Assembly (NCBI RefSeq): GCF_000968055.1
Contig: NC_022538.1
Span: 1,337,499-1,401,498 of the forward strand
DNA from: Alteracholeplasma palmae J233
GTDB taxonomy: Bacteria; Bacillota_I; Bacilli_A; Acholeplasmatales; Acholeplasmataceae
DNA: 64,000 bases
Direction: 5' to 3'
A model generated the notes under the pieces. That model ran no database searches and had not been told where the DNA came from. It was given only the letters and a program-made list of their open reading frames with translations. This document shows, in pieces, positions 2,577-58,912 of the stretch. The position numbers and the translations under genes were made by a program. Numbering within the stretch: the first letter of the stretch is position 1; each line of letters opens with the position of its first letter.

Positions 2577-3596
2577 TTATAAAACCTTTTTTTCTAAAGC
2601 AGTACCCAATACTTCAAGTTTTCTCATCATATGTTCATATTTTTCTGGTTTTAGTGATTGTGCTCCATCACTTAAAGCTTCTTCTGGTTTATGATGTACT
2701 TCAACAATCATTCCATCAGATCCAACTGCAAGACTTGCCAAAGTTAAATCTTCTATTAAACTCCATTTTCCAGCAGCATGTGATGGGTCTACTATGACAG
2801 GTAAGTGTGAAAGTTCTTTAATCGCTAAAACTGAACTAATATCTAATGTATTTCTCGTGTATTTTTCAAAAGTTCTAATACCTCTTTCACACATAATCAC
2901 ATTGTCATTACCACCTGCCATAATATATTCAGCACTCATTAACCATTCTTCTATGGTTGCGGAAGCGCCTCTTTTTAGAAGAATAGGCGTTTTTGTTTTA
3001 CCAACTGCTTTTAAAAGATCAAAATTTTGCATATTTCTAGCACCAATTTGTATGATATCTGTGTATTTAACAAAATCATCTAGGTATTCTTTACTCATAA
3101 GTTCTGTAACAATTGCCATACCTAGCTCATCAGCTACTTTTCTCATAAGTTTTAATCCTTCAATTCCTAATCCTTGGAAAGCATATGGTGAAGTTCTAGG
3201 TTTAAATACACCACCACGTAAAATACGTGTGCCACTTTTTTTAACTTCAGTAGCAATAATTCTTAATTGTTCTTCTGACTCAACTGAACAAGGTCCGGCC
3301 ATAGTAACAAAATTACCATCACCTATTTTAAGACCATTTTTAAGTGTAATAATCGTGTTTTCTTTTTTAAAGTTTCTGCTTGCCTTTTTATAAGGTGTAG
3401 AAATCTTAGTTACTTCTAAAACACCATCAAAAGCTTTTAATGAATCTGCACTGATAGTTTTTGTATCACCTATAATTCCAAATACAAAAATATCTTTACT
3501 ACTTACATCTTTTACTTCTAGCCCTTTATTTTCAATAAACTGTTTGACCTTATTTACTTGTTCTGGGGTTGTTTCTCTGCTCATTTGTACAATCAT
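2577..3596 (-). CDS. aroF: DAHP synthase, Thermotoga type with N-terminal regulatory domain
   Basis: Condenses PEP and erythrose-4-phosphate to DAHP, the entry step of aromatic biosynthesis. Residues 1 to about 75 match the small ferredoxin-like domain fused to type I-beta DAHP synthases, known to mediate Phe/Tyr inhibition in Thermotoga. The barrel follows, with AGPCS (100-104), KPRTSPY (132-138) and a DPSHAAGK block near the C-terminus. First gene of the operon, with AAGGAG upstream of the ATG. It is preceded by a leader with a Tyr/Phe-rich peptide and a terminator, so expression is probably attenuated as well as feedback-inhibited. The symbol aroF follows common use for this class. Confidence 0.93.
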   Translation of the reverse strand: MIVQMSRETTPEQVNKVKQFIENKGLEVKDVSSKDIFVFGIIGDTKTISADSLKAFDGVLEVTKISTPYKKASRNFKKENTIITLKNGLKIGDGNFVTMAGPCSVESEEQLRIIATEVKKSGTRILRGGVFKPRTSPYAFQGLGIEGLKLMRKVADELGMAIVTELMSKEYLDDFVKYTDIIQIGARNMQNFDLLKAVGKTKTPILLKRGASATIEEWLMSAEYIMAGGNDNVIMCERGIRTFEKYTRNTLDISSVLAIKELSHLPVIVDPSHAAGKWSLIEDLTLASLAVGSDGMIVEVHHKPEEALSDGAQSLKPEKYEHMMRKLEVLGTALEKKVL

Positions 3597-3618
3597 TGTT
3601 TTTCTCCTTGTTATAAAA

Positions 3619-3646
3619 CAAAAAATCCCTGGAATAGTCCAGGGAT
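3619..3646 (-). terminator. Intrinsic terminator in the aroF leader (attenuator)
   Basis: On the minus strand ATCCCTGGA and TCCAGGGAT form a perfect 9-bp stem around a 4-base loop, followed by a run of six Us. It lies after the promoter and leader peptide but before the aroF SD, so it can only serve as a conditional terminator. Confidence 0.85.
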
Positions 3647-3667
3647 AAGTGTGTTTTTTATCTTATT

Positions 3668-3776
3668 GGTTACCATTCCTTATTATCTATAGCTCAAAAA
3701 GGAATGCTTAGCATGCCTTATTTTTTGAAGTAATAAAAGTAATAAGAAAATTGTAAATTTAACATGTTTAGTAACC
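3668..3776 (-). promoter_or_regulatory. Leader RNA with alternative pairings upstream of aroF
   Basis: Three pairings can be read on the minus strand. CATTCCTT (3699-3706) pairs with AAGGAATG (3674-3681). GGAATGG (3673-3679) can instead pair with CTATTCC (3631-3637), which spans the loop and 3' arm of the terminator. GTAACC (3668-3673) can pair with GGTTAC (3771-3776) at the leader-peptide SD. These are mutually exclusive in part, as expected of an attenuator, but I cannot fix by eye which state goes with ribosome stalling. No T-box sequence is present. Confidence 0.6.
3718..3765 (-). CDS. Tyr/Phe-rich attenuation leader peptide of the aro operon
   Basis: A 15-codon ORF (MLNLQFSYYFYYFKK, then TAA) preceded by AGAAGG nine bases before its ATG. 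Seven of the eight residues 6-13 are aromatic (four Tyr, three Phe), the products of the pathway encoded downstream. It lies between a good promoter and an intrinsic terminator ahead of aroF. By analogy with pheA and trp leader peptides, a ribosome slowed at these codons would alter folding of the leader. The peptide itself is seen directly; the control mechanism is inference. Confidence 0.8.
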   Translation of the reverse strand: MLNLQFSYYFYYFKK

Positions 3777-3798
3777 TTCTTCTTTCATGTTTGTTATA

Positions 3799-3827
3799 AT
3801 CCTATCATATATTTATAAAAAATACAA
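3799..3827 (-). promoter_or_regulatory. Promoter of the aro operon
   Basis: TTGTAT, 17-base spacer, TAGGAT, with TGA just before the -10 (extended -10). Transcription would start near 3792, leaving a leader of about 195 bases before aroF. Confidence 0.7.
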
Positions 3828-58778: not shown

Positions 58779-58800
58779 GATTTTGCCTCCTTAGCGTATT

Positions 58801-58912
58801 AAAAAACTCTCTTTACCAAAGACAAAAGAGAGTTTGTTTTTTTAACAAATGCCTCGGTAGGTTATTAAGTCTTGCGACTCCTACTGTCTTTGGTATGCTT
58901 GAATTTATTTTA
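58801..58912 (-). promoter_or_regulatory. L10 leader (ribosomal protein autoregulatory RNA)
   Basis: Two exclusive folds are visible. AACTCTCTTT/AAAGAGAGTT forms a terminator stem with TTTTTT. TACCAAAGACA (minus-strand copy at 58885-58895) can pair with TGTCTTTGGTA (58814-58824), which is the terminator loop. Between them are the conserved AGTAGGAGTCGCAAGACT and CCTACCGAGG segments expected of the L10(L12)4 binding site. The location before rplJ is as in other Firmicutes. Confidence 0.85.

Follow-up and report, generated by a model that had tools for sequence, protein, structure and literature searches.

Which signal decides whether the aromatic biosynthesis operon of Alteracholeplasma palmae J233 is read is the question raised by the leader that precedes aroF in the 64-kb window (the whole stretch of DNA that was analysed). 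Direct reading of the sequence places leader and operon on the minus strand, which the original prediction had not stated, and gene-family matches confirmed the predicted order downstream of the leader, aroF-tyrA-aroB-aroA. The first gene, aroF (2577-3596; NF006421, 483 bits; PF00793 and PF18152), encodes a type I DAHP synthase with a ferredoxin-like regulatory domain; tyrA (1754-2575; PF02153 and PF20463) encodes the prephenate dehydrogenase of the tyrosine branch; aroB (757-1767; TIGR01357, 341.7 bits) encodes 3-dehydroquinate synthase; and aroA (1-760; TIGR01356, 371 bits) encodes EPSP synthase, running past the window start but complete as L225:6015-7259. The tyrA gene is thus within the operon; pheA is located elsewhere in the genome. 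In strain zrk7 (G018; L060/L154) aroF is broken, in two pieces with internal stops, and the leader is intact.

The leader begins with a promoter, read directly at 3827-3799 on the minus strand: a -35 element, TTGTAT (3827-3822), a 17-nt spacer and an extended -10 element, TG-A-TAGGAT (3804-3799). It was missing from the list returned by a generic scan; relatives share the extended -10 (TG-n-TAnnnT) with TTGTnT upstream. A Shine-Dalgarno sequence, gaAGAAGG (3782-3775, with its core AGAAGG at 3780-3775), lies 9 nt upstream of the ATG of a 15-codon leader ORF, MLNLQFSYYFYYFKK (3765-3718), whose Tyr codons at 3744-3739 and 3735-3730 form part of the stretch FSYYFYYF, seven of eight codons being aromatic. 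When all ORFs of 8-40 codons on both strands of the window were compared, at least seven aromatic codons in eight occurred in this ORF only, and it has a Shine-Dalgarno sequence. The ORF is followed by an intrinsic terminator, ATCCCTGGACTATTCCAGGGAT (3646-3617), with a 9-bp stem and then a U tract, and the leader as a whole folds at -45.7 kcal/mol, versus -26.7 kcal/mol for shuffled sequences (z -4.8). The promoter, the aromatic-rich ORF with its good ribosome-binding site and the terminator of the original prediction were therefore all found as described.

Homologues of aroF were found in 76 of 101 relatives, and 43 of those first searched, belonging to family f1 (Acholeplasmataceae, judged by its named members) and to genus g21 of family f5, carry, 140-200 nt 5′ of aroF, a leader ORF that contains a Tyr run; a near-invariant GCATTCCTTT block and then the terminator come after it. 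A covariance model of sequence and structure (R1), built from 41 distinct leaders, matched in 53 of 160 genomes of the order (one match being weak and unchecked), with a single copy in the A. palmae J233 genome. It also matched in another order, in family f16, where 11 copies were confirmed directly 5′ of aroF, each with a Tyr-bearing leader. This family contains Izimaplasma: Candidatus Izimaplasma CSBr16_77 gives a model score identical to that of one f16 genome. In total, 60 distinct leaders lie upstream of aroF in the Acholeplasmataceae, the sister family f5 and the Izimaplasma-containing family f16. The model found no more convincing matches in a sample of the phylum; weak matches (L128, L129, L131 and L137-L144) had no aroF nearby when checked and were set aside as chance.

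The Tyr run is conserved, with Tyr codons in all 60 leaders, and among the 593 codons of 41 leaders there are 175 for Tyr versus 39 for Phe. Tyrosine thus makes up 29.5% of leader codons, versus 3.9% in the long ORFs of the window, and phenylalanine is near its background (4.1% in the same long ORFs) and is missing from many leaders. The occurrence of both TAT (128) and TAC (47) indicates that selection acts on the amino acid and not on the bases; the peptide outside the run drifts freely, and the run itself varies in length and spacing (YYYxY, YYYYYY, TYRYY, YAYTY). Phe stands in for Tyr at single sites in some members of the Acholeplasma group, A. palmae included, and the Phe codons of the A. 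palmae leader are mostly a local variant. As Tyr is conserved and Phe is near background, this looks like a tyrosine leader, its most likely signal being tyrosine, read through tRNA-Tyr alone.

This departs from the original prediction, which had both tRNA-Tyr and tRNA-Phe in control, and from the proposal made for uORFC-13-1, a motif published in 2021 (RNA Biol; PMC8632094). That work describes a candidate uORF 5′ of aroF in Acholeplasma, proposes attenuation, lists 24 sequences from Acholeplasma and unassigned environmental DNA only, and takes the uORF as Phe-coded from a run of U that would specify one Phe or more. The motif is described as lying upstream of aroF, with a terminator next and with a promoter, ribosome-binding site and start codon, and these location features are found at the A. 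laidlawii and A. oculi loci (L146, L147). It is almost certainly the same element as the leader studied here, because the searched Acholeplasma genomes have one aroF, preceded by this leader. A leader that senses phenylalanine, or phenylalanine and tyrosine together, would fit the Phe codons beside the four Tyr codons of A. palmae and has a precedent in the AroR leader upstream of aroF in Corynebacterium glutamicum, which carries Phe-Tyr-Phe and is described as responding to Phe, not to Tyr (Neshat et al. 2014, per PMC11802643). We nevertheless consider it unlikely: Phe is absent from many leaders that all have Tyr, and the conserved U-rich stretch, perhaps the run meant for uORFC-13-1, is, in the Acholeplasmataceae, a segment 3′ of the leader stop (segment B, below) and so outside the ORF.

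How the progress of a ribosome along this ORF could reach the terminator depends on five RNA segments: Z (from the Shine-Dalgarno sequence to the first Tyr codon), A (from stop+1 to about stop+12), B, C and D (the terminator). In A. palmae the 5′ part of Z, GGTTAC (3776-3771), pairs with GTAACC (3673-3668) in the minimum-free-energy fold, a Z:C helix that recurs in relatives, and Z also takes in the leader codons TTTTCTTAT. Segment A (AAGGcATGC, 3719-3711) starts one base into the stop codon and is a partner of B (GCATTCCTTTTT, 3707-3696), which is near-invariant in the alignment of Acholeplasmataceae and f5 leaders and can pair with A or with C. Segment C (AATAAGGAATGGTAACC, 3684-3668) can pair with Z, with B (through AAGGAATG) or with the terminator, and in the last case its GGAATGG and the CTATTCC at 3637-3631 of D form the antiterminator. 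The alternative pairings that the original prediction noted can form in every leader examined (A:B, B:C, C:D and the terminator, which is present in all 60), and with strong energies.

It had also been expected that an alignment of relatives would show conserved aromatic codons, drifting flanks and covarying pairings. RNAalifold on a MAFFT alignment retained five terminator pairs and nothing else, because C and D align poorly across genera, and duplex energies were therefore used instead, each segment being scored with its cognate partner and with partners from other genera in a genus-level test of 20000 permutations. For C:D the cognate energy was -13.0 versus -10.3 kcal/mol, reached by none of the 20000 permutations; for B:C it was reached by 6 of 20000; and for Z:C by 2 of 20000, or by none when f16 was left out. 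C:D, B:C and Z:C pair better within a genus than between genera, that is, they covary. Among the C:D variants are GGAAC with GTTCC in most genera, GGAAG with CTTCC in L059 and AGGAaATGT with ACATTCCT in f5; Z:C appears in A. palmae and the Acholeplasma group as GGTTAC:GTAACC, GGTCAC:GTGACC and GGTAAC:GTTACC. A:B gave no detectable covariation in the same test of the leaders, which is explained by B hardly varying, and is supported instead by conserved complementarity and by the logic of the proposed mechanism. We also looked for relatives that kept the terminator without the codons; with Tyr codons in 60 of 60 leaders, the outcome favours an attenuator.

We propose that when tyrosine is scarce the ribosome would stall on the Tyr run, covering much of Z and leaving A free; free A would pair with B, and C, thereby released, would bind D along its loop and 3′ arm, allowing read-through. 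When tyrosine is ample, the ribosome would reach the stop codon and its leading edge would cover A, so that B would pair with C, D would fold and transcription would terminate. In a leader that is not translated, Z, with its Shine-Dalgarno sequence and first codons, would pair with C and D would again terminate, the operon then also being off. The stalling, the order of folding and the response to tyrosine alone are what we infer here. With an ORF filled with Tyr codons beside competing hairpins, the progress of the ribosome probably senses the tyrosine supply and decides whether the operon is read. The comparative evidence lends strong support to ribosome-mediated attenuation of the aro operon, and on these sequence grounds we judge it highly probable that the element is a transcription attenuator of this kind, reading the charging of tRNA-Tyr and controlling aroF-tyrA-aroB-aroA.

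The geometry of the leaders bears on this proposal. The leading edge of a ribosome lies about 14 nt ahead of its A site; in the set of 41 leaders, 16-25 nt separate the first Tyr codon of the run from the downstream segment A, which occupies roughly stop+1 to stop+12. Three f16 leaders (L119, L130, L134) agree less well: their stop codon is just 3′ of A, so that a terminating ribosome would cover B too, a misfit to the simple scheme unless release is fast. In two others (L124, L125) the ORF continues across A and B and ends at C; here a finishing ribosome would block C itself, and the outcome would be unchanged. A calculation on nascent transcripts separated the ribosome states modestly and in the direction proposed: of 60 leaders, 27 had at least two more predicted C:D pairs with the ribosome stalled than with it at the stop codon and 1 showed the reverse, and in 41 C:D was higher with a stalled ribosome than without a ribosome. 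Equilibrium folding of the full leader let the terminator win in most leaders and did not separate the ribosome states in many genera; for A. palmae the values were 0.72 stalled versus 0.74 at the stop, with the terminator winning. Since the terminator wins at equilibrium, the proposed switch can work only if the RNA folds while it is being transcribed.

Other explanations that keep the same features fare worse than attenuation by tRNA-Tyr charging. The nascent Tyr-rich peptide could itself arrest the ribosome, the signal then being not tRNA charging but a ligand sensed in the exit tunnel, free tyrosine or some other, and some genera do have recurrent small residues ahead of the run (AVYYY, SYYYYY), which might be read in this way; but arrest peptides need specific residues, and here flanks, run length and spacing all vary, which leaves little room for this reading. 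It is still harder to see the leader as an RNA that itself binds tRNA or tyrosine, as a T-box or riboswitch would, with the ORF incidental. T-boxes are widely used in the A. palmae genome, one precedes the aroF homologue of a relative, and segment C of A. palmae contains UGGU; the UGGU is not kept in relatives, however, and the reading frame and its tyrosines are kept through synonymous codon changes. An Rfam search of the window gave no match at the aroF leader, T-box included, and with no such match and no conserved UGGN bulge we rejected T-box and other Rfam families for it. Equally improbable is a constitutive partial terminator, with the ORF kept by chance or for translation coupling, since the pairings that compete with the terminator covary and Tyr codons are in 60 of 60 leaders, even if no structure is more stable at equilibrium than the terminator.

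T-boxes are themselves well represented elsewhere in the A. palmae genome: it has 11 matches, 7 of them above the cut-off, and the eight T-boxes examined (L071-L078) precede or adjoin genes that, from their start sequences, resemble the tRNA-synthetase genes valS, metG, alaS, pheS, trpS, asnS, serS and hisS. In family f3 a T-box (L066:3208-3438, minus strand) lies directly 5′ of an aroF homologue, so that the same metabolic step is under different RNA sensors in neighbouring families. The window also holds a ribosomal protein L10 leader (58791-58911, minus strand; RF00557, 77.5 bits).

The proposed switch shares with the trp and pheA leaders of E. coli its regulatory codons in a short leader ORF, its alternative hairpins, its intrinsic terminator and a decision made by ribosome position. 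In those leaders a stalled ribosome frees segment 2, which then forms the antiterminator; the aro leader has in addition a hairpin at the stop codon, A:B, which we propose is broken by the finishing ribosome, and its antiterminator engages the loop and 3′ arm of the terminator, a pairing order unlike the textbook trp scheme. The closest functional analogue is the Corynebacterium AroR leader, which, going by PMC11802643, also combines an aromatic-codon leader peptide and ribosome stalling with a DAHP synthase operon; it belongs to an unrelated organism, responds to Phe rather than Tyr, and is compared here by description, not by RNA. Leader-peptide attenuators are also known in Firmicutes, for hisS/hisZ, the his operon and S. 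aureus ilv (PMC2965389, PMC9413887, PMC5794164). These are likewise regular leader peptides in Gram-positive bacteria, sometimes replacing T-boxes, but serve other amino acids and operons, and are set beside the aro leader by description, not by sequence. Given these and uORFC-13-1, already reported in Acholeplasma, an attenuator of this type in a Mollicute-like genome is less surprising than had first been thought. Our literature search, which covered few subscription papers, returned no tyrosine-specific leader attenuator, the uORFC-13-1 paper being its sole relevant find.

Outside the Mollicutes, aromatic-rich leader ORFs with a Shine-Dalgarno sequence lie 5′ of DAHP synthase genes, mostly in Clostridia, at 17 of 66 loci (L155, L167, L174, L176, L179, L182, L183, L185, L186, L190, L199, L200, L203, L212, L213, L218 and L223); the corresponding counts are 9 in about 3000 random windows and 8 in 2010 shuffles. 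They differ in sequence from the Acholeplasma element, and the six that were searched had no Rfam match. They are possibly a widespread, separate set of Tyr/Phe leaders. By these counts, leaders rich in aromatic codons may well be common upstream of DAHP synthase genes in Clostridia as well.

The motif itself was published in 2021; what is new here is its tyrosine identity, its pairing scheme and its wider range, for the published text on uORFC-13-1 describes no antiterminator, and the element here has a five-segment pairing, is Tyr-coded and extends to f5 and the Izimaplasma-containing family. With its amino-acid identity corrected, the published motif becomes a specific and testable candidate for a tyrosine sensor. 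We think it rather likely, with less assurance than for attenuation as such, that it works as a Tyr-specific five-segment switch in which the stop-codon hairpin protects transcription until the finishing ribosome breaks it and the leader's own codons hold an untranslated leader off, and that this switch is common to the Acholeplasmatales and the Izimaplasma-containing order, in genomes that otherwise use T-boxes. A Mollicute-like lineage would then appear to keep T-boxes for its tRNA synthetases and ribosome-mediated control for aromatic biosynthesis.
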